From positions 1-20,102 of the IMG/VR virus record IMGVR_UViG_3300033993_002024: a DNA stretch of 20,102 nt. One strand, 5' to 3'. The notes below the pieces were generated by a model. It was not told the origin of the DNA, searched no databases, and was given only the letters and a program-made list of their open reading frames with translations. A program made the position numbers and the translations under genes. This document shows positions 7,111 through 20,102 of the stretch, piece after piece; the stretch's first letter is position 1; the number at the start of each line of letters is the position of its first letter. Origin of the DNA: a virus.

Positions 7111-7359
7111 ATGCCCTTATATCCAGTAATTAACAAAAACACAGGTGAGACAAAAGAACTTAGCATGACTATTGCGGAGTGGGAGGTTTTTAAGGAAGAA
7201 AACCCCGATTGGTCACGTCACTGGGAAATGGGATGTGCAAGTTTGGGTGAAGTTGGAGAGTGGAAAGATGTCCTGAATAAAAAACATCCATCATTTAAGG
7301 AGGTTTTAAAAAAAGTCAAAAAATCTGGCGGCATGAATGCTAAAATGGACACACTATGA
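7111..7359 (+). CDS. Conserved small phage protein, 82 aa
   Basis: Starts at TTG 7105, ATG 7108 and ATG 7111 are possible; ATG 7111 has GGAGG (7099-7103) 7 nt upstream and yields the family-like N-terminus MPLYPVINKNTGE, so it is chosen. The frame then shows a helix ending in EENPDW, and a C-terminal HPSFKEVLKKVKKSGG...NAKMDTL, a pattern I recall in many cyano- and pelagiphage proteins (MPTY ... NPH ... FRDVLKE.KK ... N.NTF), of unknown function. Overlaps phoH by 4 nt. Confidence 0.78.
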   Translation: MPLYPVINKNTGETKELSMTIAEWEVFKEENPDWSRHWEMGCASLGEVGEWKDVLNKKHPSFKEVLKKVKKSGGMNAKMDTL

Positions 7360-8126
7360 CACGATCAAGAGCAACTCGTAAATCCAGGCAACAAGCAAAC
7401 ATCCCACTAAACAAGAAAAAAACTCAATCACCACTAATAACTCTTGAACATTTAGTCGAACTCCAACCATTAACTAAAAATCAAGAAAAACTTTTTTATG
7501 CCTATGATGATGGTAAAAACATCGTGGCTCATGGATATCCGGGAACCGGTAAGAGCCTTTCGCTACTTTACAAGGCCCTAGAAGAAGTGCTGGATCCATC
7601 GACTCCTTATAAAAAGGTAATTGTCGTCAGATCCACCGTTGCAACCCGCGATATTGGATTTCTTCCTGGATCAATTTCCGAAAAGATTGCGGAATTTGAA
7701 GTACCTTATAAGTATATGATCAAAAATCTTTTTGATTTTAATTCTGACGAAAAGTATGAGATGCTTTATGGGAACCTAAAGGCCCAGAAGAGTTTTTATT
7801 TTATGCCGACGAGTTTTATTCGTGGGATGACAATTGACGAGGCCGTTATAATTGTTGATGAATTTCAGAATTGTAATAATCATGAATTAACTTCGTTAAT
7901 TACGCGAGTGGGGCAAAACACTAAAATTCATTTTAGTGGGGATATTTTTCAAACTGATTTAACTAAAAAAAGTGATATTGAAGGAATTCTAGTCTTTATG
8001 AATATTTTGAATAATATGAATTCTTTTGAGCGAATCGACTTCAATATTGAAGATATTATTCGATCAGAATTATTAAAAGAGTTTATAATAGCTAAAGACA
8101 AAATGGGTTTATTTCTTAAAGACTAA
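7356..8126 (+). CDS. phoH: PhoH-like P-loop ATPase
   Basis: A 256-residue PhoH family protein. Walker A is GYPGTGKS (60-67), followed by VVRSTVATRDIGFLPGS (90-106), Walker B VIIVDEFQN (164-172) and the sensor-like SGDIFQTD (194-201). PhoH belongs to the superfamily 1 helicase-like ATPases; it is very common in marine phages and is linked to the phosphate-starvation regulon in bacteria, but its action in phage infection is not known. A Lys/Arg-rich N-terminal 25 residues may bind RNA or DNA. It is the last gene of the cassette; its stop codon lies in a CTAAATA motif (8123-8129) and a terminator follows 40 nt later. Confidence 0.93.
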   Translation: MTRSRATRKSRQQANIPLNKKKTQSPLITLEHLVELQPLTKNQEKLFYAYDDGKNIVAHGYPGTGKSLSLLYKALEEVLDPSTPYKKVIVVRSTVATRDIGFLPGSISEKIAEFEVPYKYMIKNLFDFNSDEKYEMLYGNLKAQKSFYFMPTSFIRGMTIDEAVIIVDEFQNCNNHELTSLITRVGQNTKIHFSGDIFQTDLTKKSDIEGILVFMNILNNMNSFERIDFNIEDIIRSELLKEFIIAKDKMGLFLKD

Positions 8127-8243: not shown

Positions 8244-9385
8244 ATGACTAAGCAAAGTCCACGTATTTACGTATATAAAATTATCTTTTTAGAGATTCCA
8301 CATTATTATTTTGGATCTCACAAAGAAAAATATTTTAATGAATTTTACCTAGGTTCTCCAGTAACTAATAAGGACGTTTGGGTTTTTTATACTCCTATAA
8401 AAGAAATAATTAAGGAATTTCCATTTACAGATGAGGGGTACATTGAGGCTAGAAATTATGAAGATAGTTTAATTGAACCCGTTTATAAAACGGACCCATT
8501 TTGTTTAAATGAGGCATGTAAAGGTAGAATGACTATAAATTCCTGCAGAAGAGGAGGACAAAAAACAGGAAAATACCATTATGAAAACGGTACAGGCATA
8601 TTTTCTTTAACCACAGAAGAAAAACGTGAAGTCAGTAGAAAAAATGGACAAACTCATTATGAAAATGGTACAGGTATATTTTCTATAACCCCAGAAGAAA
8701 AACGTGAAATTAGTCGAAGAGTTGGACAAACTCATTATGAAATGGGACTAGTATTTTTTCTTTAACTGATGAAGAAAGGCGAGAAAATTGTAGAAAAGGG
8801 GGACAAACAAATAAAGAAAATGGAACTGGTATTTGTGGAATGTCAAAAGAACAGCTACAGGAAAATGGAAGAAATTCCGCAAGGAAATGTAAAGAAAGAG
8901 GAACTGGAATTTTTGGAATGACCCCAGAAGAAAAACGTGAACGTAGCAGCAAAGTAGGACAAAAACACAAAGAAAATGGAACTGGAATTTTTGGAATGAC
9001 CCCGGAAGAAAAGAGAGAGGCTAGTAAAAAAGGAGCACAAACAAATAAAGAAAATGGAACTGGATTATATGGAATTTCACCAGAACAAAGAAAAGAACAT
9101 GGTAGAAAAAATGGGCAAAAATCCCATGAGAATAAAACTGGACTTTTTGCTATGGCCCCGGAGGAAAAAACACAGGCGGGAAAAAGAGGAGCCCAAACCC
9201 AGATGGAGAAGGGTATTGGAATTTTTGGGAGAACTAAAGAAGAACAAAGAAAAAATGCTGCTAATGGATTACACGCTCAAAGGTGGCAATGCACCGTTAC
9301 TGGTTATGTTACTACGTCGGGTCCACTTACAGGATACCAAAAAGCCAGAGGCATCGACACCTCTAACCGCATAAGAATTCAATAG
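8244..9385 (+). pseudogene. GIY-YIG-like homing endonuclease with nine repeats, frameshifted
   Basis: The N-terminal domain (SPRIYVYKI ... HYYFGSHK ... FYLGSP) has the layout of a GIY-YIG nuclease, with Y-V-Y and Y-F-G-S as the degenerate motif; E in NYEDSLI could be the catalytic acid. LNEACKG leads into nine 26-residue repeats of the type ENGTGIFGMTPEEKRE, then a WQCTVTGYVTTSG ... YQKARGIDTSNRIR C-terminal domain. One A is missing in repeat 3 (AAA at 8740-8742 instead of AAAA), so the first frame stops at 8763-8765; the rest is in the -1 frame (from about 8766, with an internal ATG at 8840). Restored length is 380 residues. The intact paralogue at 12799 has the same N- and C-terminal domains with one repeat. 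It may be a decaying gene, a sequencing error, or translated in two parts. Confidence 0.82.
8577..9277 (+). repeat. Nine tandem 78-bp coding repeats
   Basis: Units start at 8577, 8655, 8733, 8810, 8888, 8966, 9044, 9122 and 9200. Unit 3 is 77 bp because of the deleted base. Each encodes 26 residues with consensus xxENGTGIFGMTPEEKREAxxKxGQT, probably a DNA-contacting helix pair. Units diverge in DNA but units 5 and 6 are nearly identical over GGAATTTTTGGAATGACCCC, suggesting recent expansion. Confidence 0.88.
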
Positions 9386-10429: not shown

Positions 10430-11010
10430 TGTCCCCTTTTGAAGTTTATGAAATGTATCTGGCCATAAAGATGCATTTCACCCAGCCGTCTTATGATTAT
10501 TTCAAGTATTCTGGTAAGGTCAAATCAAACATCGAATCATTTAATAAAAGAAAGGACAGATACTTCTTTGAAAAACTCTCAAGAAAAAAGGCCAGAAAAG
10601 ACGTTTTGGATTATTTTGTTTCAAACTTTATAGAATCTTCTGATCCTTCTAAAATGTGGGTCGGGGAAATGAAGACCTCTGGTGAGGATAATTACCTAAA
10701 ATGGAAAGGGCGGGTTCATTCTTTTACTTATTTGTTTGAGTCTGATTTAAACACTTTAACGGAGGATTGTCATCTTTATGAGGCTATTGTTTCAAAATCA
10801 GGCCATCCAAAAATCATAAAGTCCTATCTGGCAGGGAGGATCTGTTTAGAATCAATTGTTGTTATGGATGACCTGACGAAGTTTATGAGTAAGTTATCTG
10901 GGTCTTATGATCCTGTTTTAGATGTTATTCGGGCCAGGGTTAGTAAGTACAGGCCATTTTTTGTTTACGATAAGGATTCTGCTGTTCGTGTGATTAGGAG
11001 TAAAATGTGA
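10429..11010 (+). CDS. 59: gp59, loader of the gp41 helicase
   Basis: A 193-residue homologue of T4 gp59 (217). N-terminal VYEMYLAIKMHF, YDYFKYSGKV (22-31) and the basic helix KRKDRYFFEKLSRK (40-53) align with the T4 sequence YKLYLMIKQHM ... YDVIKYNWCMRV ... KRRDKYFFQKLSEK. T4 gp59 binds forked DNA and gp32 and loads the gp41 replicative helicase; gp32 is encoded three genes downstream in the same operon. It begins in a TAATG overlap with gp33 and ends in a TGATG overlap with the repeat protein. Confidence 0.9.
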   Translation: MSPFEVYEMYLAIKMHFTQPSYDYFKYSGKVKSNIESFNKRKDRYFFEKLSRKKARKDVLDYFVSNFIESSDPSKMWVGEMKTSGEDNYLKWKGRVHSFTYLFESDLNTLTEDCHLYEAIVSKSGHPKIIKSYLAGRICLESIVVMDDLTKFMSKLSGSYDPVLDVIRARVSKYRPFFVYDKDSAVRVIRSKM

Positions 11011-11345
11011 TGGAGTATGGAACGAAAGCGAAATTAGCAGAGCGTGCTGATACTCCTATTGAAGTTTTAGAGAAATTAGCGGCTGATGAAGAGTGGATGG
11101 TTCGCGGTCGGGTTGCATCAAACCCAAGTACACCACAAAAATCTTTAGAACTCCTGGCAACTGATAAAAATCCTGATGTTCGCGGTCGGCTTGCATCAAA
11201 CCCAAGTACGCCGCTAAAAACATTAGAACTCCTGGCGACCGATGAAAATTCTTGGGTTCGCTACTGGACTGCACAAAACCCGAACAGAAACGAACTAATC
11301 GAACGACTGGTTCTTATGACTAATTATAAACTGGGGGTGGGCTGA
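11010..11345 (+). CDS. Leucine-rich-repeat-variant (LRV) protein, copy 1
   Basis: GTG 11007 or ATG 11010 can start the frame; the ATG in the TGATG overlap with gp59 is chosen, giving 111 residues. It consists of four 26-residue LRV/HEAT-like repeats of the type TPxEVLExLAxDexWxVRxRVAxNPs, each two helices, and a short end NRNELIERLVLMTNYK. Such solenoids usually bind proteins. LRV proteins of nitrogen-fixing bacteria carry an FeS domain; no Cys is present here, so no cluster. It lies between gp59 and gp32 in the replication operon and is followed by a paralogue. Function unknown. Confidence 0.82.
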   Translation: MEYGTKAKLAERADTPIEVLEKLAADEEWMVRGRVASNPSTPQKSLELLATDKNPDVRGRLASNPSTPLKTLELLATDENSWVRYWTAQNPNRNELIERLVLMTNYKLGVG

Positions 11346-11733
11346 TGGATTATGACACAAAACTAGAATTGGCAAGGAGTCATGATACTCCTATCGAGAT
11401 TTTAGAAGAGTTGGCTGTTGATGAAAGTTGGGAGATTCGTGGCGAGGTTGCAACAAACTCAAATACTCTAGCAAAAACTTTAAAACTTCTAGCAACTGAT
11501 AAAAATAATTTGGTTCGCAGAAGGGTCGCAAAAAACCCAAACACCCCAGTGGAAATTCTGCAACAATTAGCGACTGATATATCATGGATCGTTCGCGCCT
11601 GTACTGCAGAAAATCCAAACATACCATTAGAAATTCTTGAACAATTAGCGACTGATAAAGATTCTGATGTTCGCTACTGGGTTGTGCAACATCCAAACCG
11701 AACCGAACTTATCGAACGACTGGTTCTTATGAC
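11298..11733 (+). repeat. 23-bp exact direct repeats in the two LRV genes
   Basis: The 23 bases at 11298-11320 recur exactly at 11711-11733; both encode the same IERLVLMTN end of the LRV genes, and identity continues after one mismatch. The spacing is 413 bp, about one gene copy. The repeats reveal a tandem duplication and could let a copy be gained or lost by recombination. Confidence 0.8.
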
Positions 11734-11755
11734 CAATTATAAGTCGGCTAAATAG
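11345..11755 (+). CDS. Leucine-rich-repeat-variant (LRV) protein, copy 2
   Basis: A 136-residue paralogue of the preceding gene with one more repeat unit: five 26-residue repeats (TPIEILEELAVDESWEIRGEVATNS and so on) and the same end NRTELIERLVLMTNYK. The TGATG overlap with copy 1 indicates coupled translation. One Cys only (in IVRACTAENP), so an FeS cluster is again excluded. The alpha solenoid suggests a protein-binding role, perhaps toward replication proteins given its neighbours gp59 and gp32, or toward a host factor. Its stop codon overlaps a CTAAATA motif (11748-11754). Confidence 0.82.
   Translation: MDYDTKLELARSHDTPIEILEELAVDESWEIRGEVATNSNTLAKTLKLLATDKNNLVRRRVAKNPNTPVEILQQLATDISWIVRACTAENPNIPLEILEQLATDKDSDVRYWVVQHPNRTELIERLVLMTNYKSAK
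11748..11754 (+). promoter_or_regulatory. Late-promoter-like CTAAATA before gp32
   Basis: The motif overlaps the LRV copy 2 stop and lies 76 nt before the gp32 start. T4 gene 32 also has late as well as earlier promoters. If used, the RNA would start near 11760 and include the leader described next. Confidence 0.45.
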
Positions 11756-12798: not shown

Positions 12799-13350
12799 AT
12801 GAAAAATAAGTCCCCGAGAATCTACACTTACAAAATTACGTTTGAAGAAGTTCCACATTACTACTACGGATATCACAAAGAAGACAAGTTTGATGAGTAT
12901 TACATGGGCTCTCCATATACTCATAAATGGATGTGGGATTTTTATACTCCACAGAAACAAGTCTTAGAATTATTTGACTTTAGTGATAAAGGGTATATTG
13001 AGGCTAGTGAAGTAGAAAAAAGATTAATAAATCCTGTTTATAAAACTGATCCGCTCTGTTTAAACGAAAATTGTGGTGGTATAATTTCTTTAGACGCTCG
13101 TAGAAGAGGTGGAAAACTTGCGGGGAAAACAACCGGAAAAATAAATGGACATAAAACCTATGAAAATAAAACTGGAATTCATGGGATGTCTTATGAACAA
13201 AGAATGGGTGCGGTTAAGAGAGGCGGGCAGGCAACAAGTTCTCAAAAATGGCAATGCACGGTTACTGGTTTTATCACCAGTGCTGCAAATCTCTCACGTT
13301 ACCAAAAAGCCAGAGGCATCGACACATCAAACAGAATCCGCCTTCAATAA
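12799..13350 (+). CDS. GIY-YIG-like homing endonuclease, intact single-repeat form
   Basis: A 183-residue paralogue of the broken endonuclease at 8244. The N-terminal domain (SPRIYTYKI ... PHYYYGYHK ... YYMGSPYTHK ... YIEASEVEKRLINPVYKTDPLCLNENCGG) matches it closely and has a degenerate GIY-YIG layout; a Glu in EASEVEKRLI is the likely catalytic acid. One repeat of the type ENKTGIHGMSYEQR and the C-terminal domain KWQCTVTGFITSAANLSRYQKARGIDTSNRIRLQ follow. It sits 6 nt after the gp32 terminator with no own promoter or ribosome site that I can see, and ends 7 nt inside the convergent gp53 gene, as expected of an inserted mobile gene at a module boundary. Confidence 0.8.
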   Translation: MKNKSPRIYTYKITFEEVPHYYYGYHKEDKFDEYYMGSPYTHKWMWDFYTPQKQVLELFDFSDKGYIEASEVEKRLINPVYKTDPLCLNENCGGIISLDARRRGGKLAGKTTGKINGHKTYENKTGIHGMSYEQRMGAVKRGGQATSSQKWQCTVTGFITSAANLSRYQKARGIDTSNRIRLQ

Positions 13351-16401: not shown

Positions 16402-17133
16402 ATGGCCATTAAAGCAAGACCATTATCAGAAATAAAATCTAAACTTTTAAGGCCAGCGACGACTAGTCATTTTGAATGCAATTTTGTTATTCCTGAAAAG
16501 GTAGTAAGATTTATAGGACAACGTGGTGTTATTCTTGATAGAGAATTAATAAACCTCAGCTGCTGTGATGCTTCTCTTCCGGGGTCTACTCTTAATACGG
16601 CAACTCTTACTGATTCTTATACAGGTGTTACTGAAAATTATGCTTATAGGAGAGCCTATGATAATCGGGCCGATTTTAGTTTTTATGTCGATTATAATCC
16701 GGAAAAAACTCCTTACTCTGTAATTTTGGTATTTGAAAATTGGATTGCATTTGCAGCAGGAGAAAATAATAAAGCAAGATTAGACGATTTAAACTATTTT
16801 TATAGAGTAAATTTTCCATCTAATTATATCGCCAGACAATTTACGATTAAAAAATTTGAAAAAGATTATAAAAAATACATAGAATATACTTTTATAAATT
16901 CATTCCCACTTTCAATTTCATCAATGCCGGTTTCTTATGAGGGATCTCAAGTATTAAAATTTACTGTTTCCTTTTCATATCAAAGATACGTTCTAGGTAG
17001 TTTAACTGGCCCCGGTGTACCGGAACCACCACCGGCCCCGCAACTTCCACCGCCCACTACACCGCAAGGTCAACAACAATCTCCTACGGCACCCATAGTT
17101 AGCGAGGCTTTTAGGTTACCGACAGTGGCCTAA
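16402..17133 (+). CDS. Tail tube / tube initiator protein (gp54/gp19-like)
   Basis: A 243-residue protein with the cyanophage tube-family pattern: PLSEIKSKLLRPATTSHFECNF (7-28), SCCDASLPGSTLNTATL (53-69), FTGV-type YTGVTENYAYRRAYDNRADFSFYVD (73-97), a helix FENWIAFA (111-118), YFYRVNFPSNYIARQFTIKKFEKDYKKYIEYTFINSFPLSISSMPVSY and a closing TVSFSYQRYV. This is the fold shared by gp19 (tube) and gp54 (initiator that starts the tube on gp48). The extra Pro/Gln-rich tail (203-231) is unusual for a tube protein and favours gp54. gp48, its T4 partner, is encoded nearby on the other strand. It directly precedes gp26 and the tail assembly genes. Confidence 0.78.
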   Translation: MAIKARPLSEIKSKLLRPATTSHFECNFVIPEKVVRFIGQRGVILDRELINLSCCDASLPGSTLNTATLTDSYTGVTENYAYRRAYDNRADFSFYVDYNPEKTPYSVILVFENWIAFAAGENNKARLDDLNYFYRVNFPSNYIARQFTIKKFEKDYKKYIEYTFINSFPLSISSMPVSYEGSQVLKFTVSFSYQRYVLGSLTGPGVPEPPPAPQLPPPTTPQGQQQSPTAPIVSEAFRLPTVA

Positions 17134-17165: not shown

Positions 17166-17888
17166 ATGGCTCTTCCTATTGTTAATGCTCCTGAATACTT
17201 CCTTGAACTCCCTTCAAACGGAAAGAAAGTAAAATATCGTCCTTTTGTCGTAAGAGAAGAAAAGGTTCTTCTACTTGCCCTTGAATCCGAGGACGTTGCT
17301 GAAATGTCCAATGCGGTGAAAAATGTCCTGACTAGTTGCGTAAAAGGCGATAATCTTAATATTGAAACCCTCCCGACTTTTGACATTGAATATCTGTTCC
17401 TCAATATCCGAGGAAAGGCAGTTGGAGAAGAGATTGAATTGGAACTTCTTTGCCCCGACGATGGTGAGACTTATGCAAAAACCAAGATCTTTATTGATGA
17501 AATCAAGGTCAAAAAAGACCCGACCCATACAAATAAAATAAAGATCAATGATGACCTGATGATGGAAATGAAGTATCCATCACTTGAGCAGTTTATTAAA
17601 TCCAACTTTAACTTTGAAGACCGTAAAAATCAACTAGAGCAATCAATTGAACTAATCGCAGCCTGTGTTGATAAAATTTATAATCAAGAAGAAGTCTGGA
17701 CTTCTTCTGACGTGACAACTCAAGAAATTATTGATTTTCTTGAGAATCTAAATTCCACCCAGTTCAGTGAGATTGAAAAGTTCTTTGAGACCATGCCAAA
17801 ACTAGAGCATAAGGTACAACTTAAAAACCCAAAAACAGAAGTAGAGAGTACCATTACACTTGCAGGGCTAACCGATTTTTTCGGATAG
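17166..17888 (+). CDS. 26: Baseplate hub chaperone gp26
   Basis: A 240-residue protein (T4 gp26: 208). KVKYRPFVVREEKVLLLALESEDV (21-44) and DIEYLFLNIRGKAVGEEIELEL (73-94) match the T4_baseplate family, where T4 gp26 reads MRPFTVKEEKILLMASE ... DLEYLFINLRAKSVGE. The family helps assemble the baseplate hub around the tape measure. The last codons read GAT TTT TTC GGA TAG, containing a T TTT TTC slippery heptamer; a -1 shift there would skip the TAG and continue into the gene at 17900, giving a longer form. CTAAATA lies 29 nt upstream; no strong Shine-Dalgarno is visible. Confidence 0.87.
   Translation: MALPIVNAPEYFLELPSNGKKVKYRPFVVREEKVLLLALESEDVAEMSNAVKNVLTSCVKGDNLNIETLPTFDIEYLFLNIRGKAVGEEIELELLCPDDGETYAKTKIFIDEIKVKKDPTHTNKIKINDDLMMEMKYPSLEQFIKSNFNFEDRKNQLEQSIELIAACVDKIYNQEEVWTSSDVTTQEIIDFLENLNSTQFSEIEKFFETMPKLEHKVQLKNPKTEVESTITLAGLTDFFG
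17876..17882 (+). other. Putative -1 programmed frameshift site T TTT TTC
   Basis: In the gp26 frame the codons are GAT TTT TTC GGA TAG, so the heptamer T TTT TTC is in the X XXY YYZ register. Both Phe tRNAs can re-pair after a one-base slip. The -1 frame then reads CGG ATA GGT CTC AGC CAT ATG and enters the 17900 gene without a stop. The product would be gp26 residues 1-239, six linker residues (RIGLSH) and the 55 residues of the next gene, 300 in all. No clear downstream stem is visible. Confidence 0.7.
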
Positions 17889-17899
17889 GTCTCAGCCAT

Positions 17900-18067
17900 A
17901 TGGATCTGATGTCTTACTATAAATTAAATTTTAGTCTGGCCCAGTTTCATAAATGGTCAATATCAGAAATAGAAAACTTTATTCCTTATGAACGTGAACT
18001 TTATGTGATAATGCTGAATCAACACATCGAGGAAGAAGAACAAAAACAAAAAGCCCTGTCCCCATAA
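17900..18067 (+). CDS. 51: gp51-like small tail assembly protein / frameshift extension
   Basis: A 55-residue ORF in the -1 frame relative to gp26, 11 nt after its stop. The sequence YYKLNFSLAQFHKWSISEIENFIPYERELYVIMLNQHIEEEEQ has the pattern of the T domain of tail chaperones (HxWSxxEIExxxPxERxxYxxLLxxHLEEE), annotated as gp51 in cyanophages, from memory. It is far shorter than T4 gp51 (249). It may be made alone from ATG 17900 (no good ribosome site) or, more likely, as a C-terminal extension of gp26 by -1 frameshifting. It abuts the tape-measure-like gene exactly (TAA-ATG). Confidence 0.72.
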   Translation: MDLMSYYKLNFSLAQFHKWSISEIENFIPYERELYVIMLNQHIEEEEQKQKALSP

Positions 18068-20102
18068 ATGTCAATCAGAAACAAGTTAGACGCACTTAAA
18101 AGAATACTTGGGGCCGAGAACTTTTTTCTGGCCGAGGCATTTATTGACAAAAATTTAAAACCACTAAAGATCAGAAAGAACTCTAATCTTTATGTTGCGG
18201 CTGTTGAATATATTGGCACATTAATTCAAGAAGGAAAGCAAATATTATCAGATAAAGAGGCCGAAACCTTATCCAAAGACAACACAAAAAAGACTGTTGG
18301 TACTGTTCATAAAAGGCTAAAGAAAGAGTTCGATAATCTTGTAAAAATAAACCAAATAATAGAAGGAGAAAAGAAAGAACCAGCAAGAACTGCCACTAAA
18401 CCTTTACCCGATCCAATCCCGGCTGCTGCGGCAAAAAAAGAACCGCCAGAAGTAACTCTTGAGGCCGATCAAAAAAGAGTCCAAAAAGGCGGCTATGCAA
18501 CAGTAACCTGGGTATCTAAAAATGCGGCCAGGATATCAAGAACAGACATTCCAGGAGTAACGTCAAGATCTCCTTTGAGTGGTTCTATAGAAGTCAAGGA
18601 CATAAGAAGGAGACGGGATCTTTATATTGTTGTTGAATCTTTAGATGGTCAAAAGGCCGAGGCCAAGACTCAAATTTTTGTTGAGACCCAAGATTATCAA
18701 AGGAAAAGAGAGAAAGGAATAGTCGATGAAGAACCTCCTACTCCACAACCAAGACAACCATCAATTAATCTGGTCAGCCCTTCTTCTAGACCCCAACCAG
18801 AGCCAAGAAGGCGGCCAACACCGGATGCCGAATCTTCTAATATAAACACCAATATTCTAGTCAGTATTGAGAAGTCCCTTACAAATATTTCTAGGGTTCT
18901 TGCCTCTCAATTGAGGTTAGGTCAAAGAATTTTTGATACCGAAAGAAAGGCAGCCGAGGCCGCAAATCGGCTCAAAAAAGAAGAGCAAATGGAGGCAAAA
19001 GATGAGGGTCCTTCTGGAACTTCTCTGATGAAGGCCGGGGCCGAAAAGATGCTTTCGCCATTTAAGGCCATTATTGATAAGATCATTAACTTTTTGGTCT
19101 TTACATTTTTGGGCCGGGCCTTTACTGAGATCATAAAATGGATGAATGATCCGGCAAATAAAGGAAAGGTTGATGCCCTAGGAAAATTCTTAAAGGCCGC
19201 CTGGCCAATTCTTCTTGGACTTTCTGTACTATTTTTGACACCTTTAGGTAGTTTTATTTTAGGAACTGTCCAGTTTTTGACCGGAACCGCCAAGACCTTA
19301 AAGGGTCTAAAAAGATTAATTGATAAACTTATTTTCAAGAAAGGAGCCAAGCCGCCAGTAAAAGGTAGTCCAGGTACTGCTGGTAAACCTAAGGTAACAG
19401 TAAGCGGGGAAACTCAGGCCAGAGGACCATTTGCAAGGAAATTCCCAATATCTGGGGATGTCCAACCGAGAGGTTCTAGATTACCCAAGATTCCATCTTT
19501 AAAAGGAATTGGTCGCGGAAATTTAGTTACTGCGGCTATAACAACACTTGCTTCAATGTTTATGCCGCAAATTCAGAGTGCTGTTGGTGGTGTATATGGA
19601 GGCATGGGGCTTGGTGTTCAAAATTTAACTGATGATCAATTAGCAGAAGAAATTAAAAATGAATCTAAGATAAAAGATGATCCTTTTGGTAGACTCAGGC
19701 TATTACAGGAAGAAGCCGAACGAAGACAAAAGAAATTTTCATCGGGTGGCCAGATATTCTCAGGTCTCGTGACAGAAAAAGACGGAATAAAAGTATCTGG
19801 CGCAGGAAAAGATACTCAAGCATTCCCTGTTATGGGTGGTGGAACAGCAGTTCTTCAACCAGGGGAAGTCGTTCTTAATAAGCAAGGTGTAAAAAACGCA
19901 CTTTCTATAGGAATAGATCCATTAAAACTAAACACTGGACCAAATGCAAATAAACCGGCTAATATAACAACCGGAATAAAGGCCATGAAATCAGGTGGGG
20001 TTGTTGGTGGTATGAATATGATGCCAAGAATGAAGACACCATCAATGAATTTAAATTCTATTAAAAACATCACCAACAGGCCAACGAATTTAAATGTCAA
20101 CA
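18068..20102 (+). CDS. Large tail protein, tape-measure-like (partial, open at window end)
   Basis: An ORF of at least 678 codons with no stop before the window ends. N-terminal helical part (1-105), then a Pro/Ala linker and an Ig-like domain at about 128-207 (EVTLEADQKRVQKGGYATVTW ... SGSIEVKD ... YIVVESLDGQ). A Pro/Arg-rich linker (220-260), a helical stretch, and two hydrophobic segments near 340-360 and 378-405 follow, then basic Gly/Pro-rich sequence and, near 557-605, SSGGQIFSG ... GAGKDTQAFPVMGGGTAVLQPGEVVL, a motif recurring in phage tail tape-measure and related proteins. Position right after tube and chaperone genes supports a tape-measure/gp29 analogue; the Ig domain and linkers are unusual for that, so another tail structural role is possible. 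Confidence 0.65.
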   Translation, partial: MSIRNKLDALKRILGAENFFLAEAFIDKNLKPLKIRKNSNLYVAAVEYIGTLIQEGKQILSDKEAETLSKDNTKKTVGTVHKRLKKEFDNLVKINQIIEGEKKEPARTATKPLPDPIPAAAAKKEPPEVTLEADQKRVQKGGYATVTWVSKNAARISRTDIPGVTSRSPLSGSIEVKDIRRRRDLYIVVESLDGQKAEAKTQIFVETQDYQRKREKGIVDEEPPTPQPRQPSINLVSPSSRPQPEPRRRPTPDAESSNINTNILVSIEKSLTNISRVLASQLRLGQRIFDTERKAAEAANRLKKEEQMEAKDEGPSGTSLMKAGAEKMLSPFKAIIDKIINFLVFTFLGRAFTEIIKWMNDPANKGKVDALGKFLKAAWPILLGLSVLFLTPLGSFILGTVQFLTGTAKTLKGLKRLIDKLIFKKGAKPPVKGSPGTAGKPKVTVSGETQARGPFARKFPISGDVQPRGSRLPKIPSLKGIGRGNLVTAAITTLASMFMPQIQSAVGGVYGGMGLGVQNLTDDQLAEEIKNESKIKDDPFGRLRLLQEEAERRQKKFSSGGQIFSGLVTEKDGIKVSGAGKDTQAFPVMGGGTAVLQPGEVVLNKQGVKNALSIGIDPLKLNTGPNANKPANITTGIKAMKSGGVVGGMNMMPRMKTPSMNLNSIKNITNRPTNLNVN

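Follow-up and report, generated by a model that had tools for sequence, protein, structure and literature searches.

Results

The gp26/gp51 junction of the window

We analysed a linear 20.1-kb IMG/VR contig (record IMGVR_UViG_3300033993_002024, positions 1 to 20,102), the whole of which, 20,102 nucleotides (nt) in length, is referred to as the window, and within it the junction at which a gp26-type gene meets the short open reading frame (ORF) known in cyanophages as 'gp51'. Judged by gp26, the closest named relative is Synechococcus phage B23 (Kyanoviridae; 76%), and the gp32, gp59-like and PhoH genes elsewhere in the record fit a T4-type cyanophage. The features of the junction are as follows.

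17166..17888, plus strand: gp26-type gene, the putative short N-terminal form (TAC-N) of a tail assembly chaperone (TAC), 240 amino acids (aa); assigned by PF12322, phrog_150 and a fold model
17864..17867, plus strand: AGGG, a possible internal Shine-Dalgarno-like stimulator, weak, 8 nt before the heptamer
17876..17882, plus strand: slippery heptamer T TTT TTC, the proposed -1 frameshift site; read directly, conserved
17886..17888, plus strand: zero-frame stop TAG, one codon past the heptamer; read directly
17882..18067, plus strand: -1 extension of 61 codons plus TAA, the putative TAC-C domain of the long form, corresponding to cyanophage 'gp51' (phrog_634)
17900..17902, plus strand: ATG, the usual start call for 'gp51', probably an internal Met codon of the fusion; not conserved

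The zero frame of gp26 ends GAT TTT TTC GGA TAG, in which the codons TTT and TTC of the heptamer fit the X XXY YYZ register. An earlier note on this DNA had placed an in-register T TTT TTC at 17876-17882, and direct reading bore this out. The note had also described the -1 frame as free of stops and identical with that of the gene starting at 17900 (an ORF of 55 codons); indeed, the codons past the slip (CGG ATA GGT CTC AGC CAT ATG) stay open until TAA at 18065-18067. Translation likewise confirmed the 240- and 300-residue products given there, the fusion of 300 residues having the junction ...LTDFF-RIGLSHMDL....

In profile searches gp26 matched PF12322 (T4_baseplate, 1.8e-68) and phrog_150 (7.4e-71). 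The -1 extension, aligned as family A2, matched phrog_634, 'baseplate hub assembly catalyst' (6.4e-24), and gave a weak match (0.014) to the C-terminal end of phrog_150, a family of 282 positions. On its own, the -1 ORF had no match in the Pfam search of the window proteins.

Conservation of the slippery heptamer

In the 80 viral contigs of a first scan, with gp26 identities of 58-100%, the end of gp26 carried T TTT TTC without exception. We then read 204 junctions, consisting of 189 viral contigs, 14 named phages and the window's own record; two loci that run off their contigs (L207, L208) were left out. Dereplication at < 85% protein identity yielded 108 representatives. Three copies (L098, Cr30; L100, CC2; L081, the window) count among the 204 and were excluded from dereplication, the window being represented among the 108 by L001, whose gp26 is identical. 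An in-register TTTTTTN was present in 200 of the 204 junctions (TTTTTTC 178, TTTTTTT 21, TTTTTTA 1, none 4) and, after dereplication, in 104 of 108 (C 95, T 8, A 1); the four junctions without it belong to one clade. T TTT TTC was also read, apart from the 204, in Atu_ph07 (L097), KVP40, S-WAM2, S-PM2, Aeh1 and S13, and T TTT TTG in RHph_Y68. Altogether, 17 of the 25 named phages examined carry a TTTTTTN heptamer.

The zero-frame stop lies 0 or 1 codon past the heptamer in 103 of the 104 dereplicated loci (9 codons in RHph_I1_18). No premature stop was found in the -1 frame of the 200 junctions, 195 of which extend for at least 57 codons while five run to the contig end. Thus, the alignment across relatives that the earlier note had proposed returned a conserved heptamer, a conserved register and a stop-free -1 overlap (200/204; 104/108).

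The heptamer at the gp26 end is not a chance occurrence: at all other gp26 codon positions of the 104 relatives, in-register T TTT TTN was seen 6 times in 24,343. A stop-free frame of 61 codons has by itself a chance of ~1% given the base composition. The codon preceding TTT ends in T in 104 of 104 loci, though its amino acid varies (Ser, Asp, Asn, Ala or Gly); from its own codon usage, and with the relatives treated as independent, this final T has a log10 P of -22.6. Elsewhere in gp26, 67% of Phe codons are TTT, and Phe-Phe pairs are written TTC TTT (76), TTT TTT (21), TTC TTC (9) and, in two cases, TTT TTC. The wobble positions of the heptamer are frozen. Because a single TTA and a single TTG form change the zero-frame residue, these data suggest that what is conserved is the slippery run, not Phe-Phe.

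Protein selection in the -1 frame

Coding constraint was followed in the 102 representatives having at least 21 -1 codons; L146 and L186, whose -1 ORFs are cut after 17 and 12 codons respectively, are within the 104 and were excluded here. At 92 loci whose stop lies one codon past the heptamer, 68% of single-base differences in codons 5-7, which span the stretch from the gp26 stop to the site of ATG 17900, were synonymous in the -1 frame, as against 10-11% in the other two frames; the value inside annotated gp51 is 69%. As an ATG occurs at codon 4, 5 or 6 in many of these 92 loci, the smaller sets without an early ATG weigh more. In 18 loci with the first ATG at codon 8, the three preceding codons showed 179 synonymous and 4 non-synonymous differences in the -1 frame, compared with 6:178 and 0:201 in the others. 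Among the 102 relatives, 30 lack an ATG within -1 codons 1-20, and 21 lack ATG, GTG and TTG alike; their synonymous shares were 0.63 (codons 5-19) and 0.60, versus 0.15-0.21 for the other frames in loci without an early start. Since the sequence pairs are not independent, these shares are contrasts between frames, not tests. The -1 frame is under protein selection ahead of any start codon; on the 5' side of the heptamer, its open stretch contains a start codon in 1 of 102 loci.

ATG 17900 is missing in a relative of 93% identity (L002) and is not conserved further out. Among the relatives, the median anti-Shine-Dalgarno (anti-SD) energy was -0.1 at the putative gp51 ATG and -0.7 in the gp26 interior; starts of the next gene had -1.0 and those of gp26 -3.1. 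The next-gene start of the window has -0.1. The lack of Shine-Dalgarno enrichment at gp51 ATGs is hardly informative, because next-gene starts reach only -1.0. Of the poorly conserved gp51 ATG and ribosome site anticipated in the earlier note, the former was found (30/102 without ATG), and the latter carries little weight as an argument, the window's own site being better than that of its gp26 start (see Discussion).

Among named phages, Aeh1, S13, CC2 and S-WAM2 lack an early ATG in the -1 ORF. The C-terminal chaperone ORF is unannotated at the junction in these four (L263, L264, L092 and L242 respectively), 'gp51' having been missed by annotation because there is no early ATG; in syn9 (L096) it is annotated from a late internal start.

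Relation to T4 gp26 and gp51

T4 gp26 (208 aa) and gp51 (249 aa) both match PF12322. T4 gp26 has the C-terminus ...GLKEFFELL, and T4 gp51 extends ~48 residues more. In profile comparisons (hhalign), 42 gp26 sequences mapped to residues 6-198 of T4-type gp51 (E 7.5e-11) and 31 -1 products to residues 200-246 (95.9%, E 5e-9), collinear with the gp26 part; as a control, the -1 products gave no match to the gp26 profile (0.4%). Among 16 whole phage records, T4 has two PF12322 genes and each of the 15 others has one, 11 of these with the heptamer and four without. The putative fusion would consist of a PF12322 domain plus a C-terminal domain of ~47 residues, the composition seen in T4 gp51. The collinear profile matches and the two PF12322 genes in T4 identify T4 gp51 as the fused long form, made up of a gp26-type domain and a -1 tail, so that T4 meets by two genes what other phages appear to meet by frameshifting. 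By Pfam and profile comparison, T4 gp26 corresponds to the short form and T4 gp51 to the long one; T4 differs in that the two are separate, divergently oriented genes and in the lack of a heptamer from gene 26. The two-gene rows form only a weak group (59/34) in a tree of 33 sequences. In one contig (L234), a T4-type gp51 gene matches only with a change of frame, over a span of 746 bases that is not a multiple of three; this is possibly a sequencing indel.

An AlphaFold model of the window gp26 had a mean predicted local distance difference test (pLDDT) score of 84.5. Foldseek returned no match to it at E <= 0.001; among the matches listed, the top probabilities fell on the HK97 tail assembly chaperone 2ob9 (0.75) and on 3fgx (0.54). 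Realignment of the Foldseek candidates to gp26 residues 1-96 gave Z scores of 7.8 (3fgx), 7.8 (2ob9) and 6.9 (3klu), followed by 5ir0 (5.3) and 1p32 (3.3). We take 3fgx and 3klu to be phage chaperone relatives. In this model, then, the N-terminal domain of gp26 resembles the HK97 tail assembly chaperone over ~90 residues; the other ~150 residues differ, with no row above Z 3.3, and sequence identity to the three structures is 6-14%. The whole gp26 sequence found no relative in the PDB (best E 0.71).

A clade without the heptamer

YC, K397, K475, Cygsa01, Ag3, phiEa2809 and SD25 have no heptamer and form one supported clade (99/99); Dickeya phiD3, which was not placed in the tree, has an Ag3-type junction. 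In this Ackermannviridae-centred group of eight phages and 18 contigs (L236-L239, L089, L090, L093, L094; L245-L262) the -1 ORF is kept, and all 26 junctions read T TTY, then a sense codon, then TAA. An ATG overlapping the TAA (TAATG) is present in seven of the eight named phages, phiEa2809 having TAATA (the tree label TAATG is loose and takes in phiEa2809), while 15 of the 18 contigs have TAATT and no ATG at the junction. Re-initiation at TAATG was considered as a general third solution for this group and rejected on account of phiEa2809 and these 15 contigs. Neither a two-tRNA slip nor start-codon re-initiation fits all 26 members, since they have only T TTY and since TAATT is found in 15 of the 18 contigs. 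From the sequences, a slip on T TTY is possible.

Candidate stimulators

The figures in this section are averages over the family and are not specific to the window. Over the 18 nt before the heptamer codon, the mean anti-SD energy of the 102 relatives was -6.73 (mean rank 0.40), versus -5.40 when the codons were replaced by synonyms; control segments gave -1.75 versus -1.92 (rank 0.64). Folding energy, expressed as z against an exact dinucleotide shuffle, was lowest for the segment that begins 15 nt past the heptamer start (mean z -1.55), with values of 0.30 to -0.69 for starts at least 50 nt upstream and 0.03 to -0.65 for those at least 20 nt downstream. Perfect-stem hairpins scoring at least 12 occurred at 33% of the junctions, versus 14% inside gp26 and 3% at 60 nt further on; mean hairpin scores differed little (7.5, 6.7 and 5.6 respectively). 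At 22 loci there is a 5-bp hairpin after a 10-nt spacer, mostly GGTCC-ATAT-GGACC plus paired variants. Over all 102 sequences, the cells of this hairpin were paired in 60.0%, versus 55.1% when shuffled, with a covariation score of 0.258 versus 0.199; sliding the position by -1 gave 0.270, above that of the true position. Stimulators are possible, and would be lineage-specific.

Neighbouring genes and other features of the window

Two genes flank the junction.

16402..17133, plus strand: tail tube protein gene, directly upstream (PF23849, 1.6e-11; phrog_45, 5.6e-28)
18068..20101, plus strand: long gene, open at the window end; a tape-measure candidate by position only (phrog_35029)

The earlier note had likened the gene order to that of siphovirus tail modules. 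This held for the tail tube gene upstream. For the gene at 18068, a tape measure is suggested by position only: the single strong PHROG match of that gene (phrog_35029, 2e-21) is to a family without assigned function, no Pfam family scored above cut-off, and neither set of profiles recognized it as a tape measure. In Cr30 and RHph_I1_18, an annotated tape-measure gene is separated from the -1 ORF by one small gene.

Elsewhere in the window, ORFs at 8244-8765 and 8840-9385, in different frames, carry 78-bp tandem repeats (ENGTGIF..TPEEKRE type) and jointly share start and end sequences with a single ORF at 12799-13350, as would be expected had an indel within the repeats split a single repeat-bearing gene. 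Two adjacent leucine-rich-repeat-variant/HEAT-like ORFs (PF01816) occupy 11007-11755, between gp59-like and gp32-like replication genes. In the PhoH-like gene (7356-8126), GGGTTTA stands in register four codons ahead of the stop, which is probably due to chance.

Discussion

We propose, with a probability of about 0.92, that the gp26 and gp51 products are made by -1 ribosomal frameshifting of the lambda G/GT type at the T TTT TTC heptamer, and that cyanophage 'gp51' is very probably the frameshifted C-terminus of gp26. This reading of the sequences is based on the conservation of the heptamer, protein selection in the -1 frame, the fused T4 gp51 and the chaperone-like N-terminal fold. We infer slippage itself, its frequency and the assembly roles of both forms as follows. 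The majority of ribosomes would halt at TAG 17886 and yield the 240-residue short form. A minority would slip by -1 on T TTT TTC, both Phe-tRNAs re-pairing with TTT TTT, and continue in the -1 frame to 18067, giving a long form of 300 residues, the final 61 of which would be what cyanophage annotations call 'gp51'. If the parallel with lambda G/GT holds, the tape-measure protein would be coated by the short form, and tail tube subunits would be recruited through the C-terminal domain of the long one. The equivalent products of T4 come from gene 26 (short) and gene 51 (long).

The likeness to lambda gpG/gpGT lies in a short chaperone with a frameshifted long form, a site near the end of the first ORF, and the -1 direction. 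The differences are that the heptamer of lambda is not T TTT TTC and that the short protein of the window has 240 aa and belongs to PF12322. The slippery heptamer of lambda is GGGAAAG. The analogy had been drawn in the earlier note, and it gains strength from the chaperone-like fold and from T4 gp51 being the fused form. A passage of Atkins et al. (2016; PMC5009743) describes the lambda G-T frameshift and its conservation 'except T4'. T4-like tail assembly chaperones were the subject of Vladimirov, Gautam and Davidson (2022; Virology 566:9-15), going by its title and by papers citing it; the title puts the emphasis on a mechanism other than frameshifting. As cited in a passage of the PRFect paper, that study found that some T4-like phages carry a short and a long gene and no frameshifting, and the Adele paper cites it, likewise in a passage, for poly-T slippery sequences in T4-like TAC-N genes. 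Because papers citing this work mention both poly-T sites and the two-gene arrangement, frameshifting of this kind is probably already known, the cyanophage case being a new instance. The earlier note knew of no description for T4-type gp26/gp51. This stands for the cyanophage pair by name, of which there was none among the matches listed in our literature searches (most subscription papers were out of reach), and falls for T4-like poly-T sites, which are mentioned in print.

Two further papers concern the proteins themselves: PMC3004832, which we take to be Leiman et al. 2010, and PMC3037559, presumably Sullivan et al. 2010. In the relevant part of the former, a review, gp26 and gp51 are hub assembly chaperones, gp51 being essential and of unknown function (PMC3004832). 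The latter, a comparison of 26 T4-like genomes, notes in the part that deals with gp51 that the initial ~200 residues are absent from the cyanophage protein and that Aeh1 alone has no gp51 (PMC3037559, 2010). We find that Aeh1 gp26 ends GAT TTT TTC GAC TGA and that its -1 frame carries an unannotated homologous domain with no early ATG.

Several observations weigh against ribosomal frameshifting of the G/GT type. The heptamer is missing in eight named phages and in 18 of 18 contigs of one group. Downstream of the heptamer, the studied window folds no better than shuffles (z 0.40), and RNAalifold, run on the 102 sequences, rejected a single conserved downstream stem-loop. The fold matches stay below Z 8, with Foldseek E values of ~1, and genetic work cited in a passage of PMC3004832 located gp26 in the T4 hub, which is unexpected for a pure chaperone. 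To these are added the start codon of gp51 and the six-T run itself, each of which invites a different explanation of the junction.

If the start codon were decisive, gp51 would be an ordinary small gene translated from ATG 17900 only, whether through a ribosome site of its own or through re-initiation following the gp26 stop close by, and the T run would be merely a conserved pair of Phe codons. The window does have an ATG, and 67 of 102 relatives have one no later than codon 8; that of the window lies 12 nt past the stop with an anti-SD energy of -4.8, better than the gp26 start (+1.8). Moreover, many annotations list gp51 as a separate gene, and the gp26 family, T4 gp26 included, ends in two Phe. 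Yet the frame is still selected in the loci without an ATG, or without any of the three start codons, among the first 20 codons, for which Aeh1, S13, CC2 and S-WAM2 are the named cases, and selection in the -1 frame begins already ahead of the ATG. Nor do two Phe residues explain the choice of TTT TTC with a preceding T, and T TTT TTA and T TTT TTG do not encode Phe-Phe. We therefore consider a free gene as the only source of gp51 very improbable; given the anti-SD energy of its ATG, free gp51 as an additional product in the window phage is possible.

The -1 product could instead stem from transcriptional slippage on the T run, with an extra T in some mRNAs, as a run of six T could permit RNA polymerase to slip; the run has 6 T in 96, 7 T in 3 and 8 T in 5 of the 104 relatives. 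Six T are short for efficient polymerase slippage. Furthermore, the codon register is kept, which ribosome slippage requires and polymerase slippage does not, and the four loci without the in-register heptamer have no run of six T in any register within the last 60 nt of gp26. The stop 0-1 codon past the site (103/104) and the dip in folding energy downstream likewise suit the ribosome, and we rate the polymerase as an even more improbable source than a free gene. That the two ORFs are one gene split by a true indel or a sequencing error, an idea prompted by the fact that a single shift would connect both frames, is refuted by conservation, the same arrangement being found in 104 of 108 dereplicated relatives and 17 of 25 named phages.

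A broader reading, which we offer tentatively and regard as unlikely to hold in full, is that -1 frameshifting on a T run is ancestral in T4-superfamily myoviruses, that gene duplication took its place in T4 and its nearest relatives, and that the Ackermannviridae-centred clade would use a reduced T TTY site, the latter part being suggested by the 15 of 18 contigs without a junction ATG; beyond the two-gene case this would perhaps be unpublished. On this reading, frameshifting would have persisted in cyanophages, in KVP40-like, CC2-like and Aeh1-like Straboviridae, in Menderavirus and Otagovirus, and in Rhizobium phages, and all four bases occur at the last heptamer position.

For the T4-type phages, frameshifting at the gp26 end would mean that one mechanism accounts for both the short gp51 of cyanophages and its apparent absence in Aeh1. 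If this is true, T4 gp26 and gp51 would be the short and long members of a chaperone pair, a reading relevant to the role of gp51, the hub assembly 'catalyst'.

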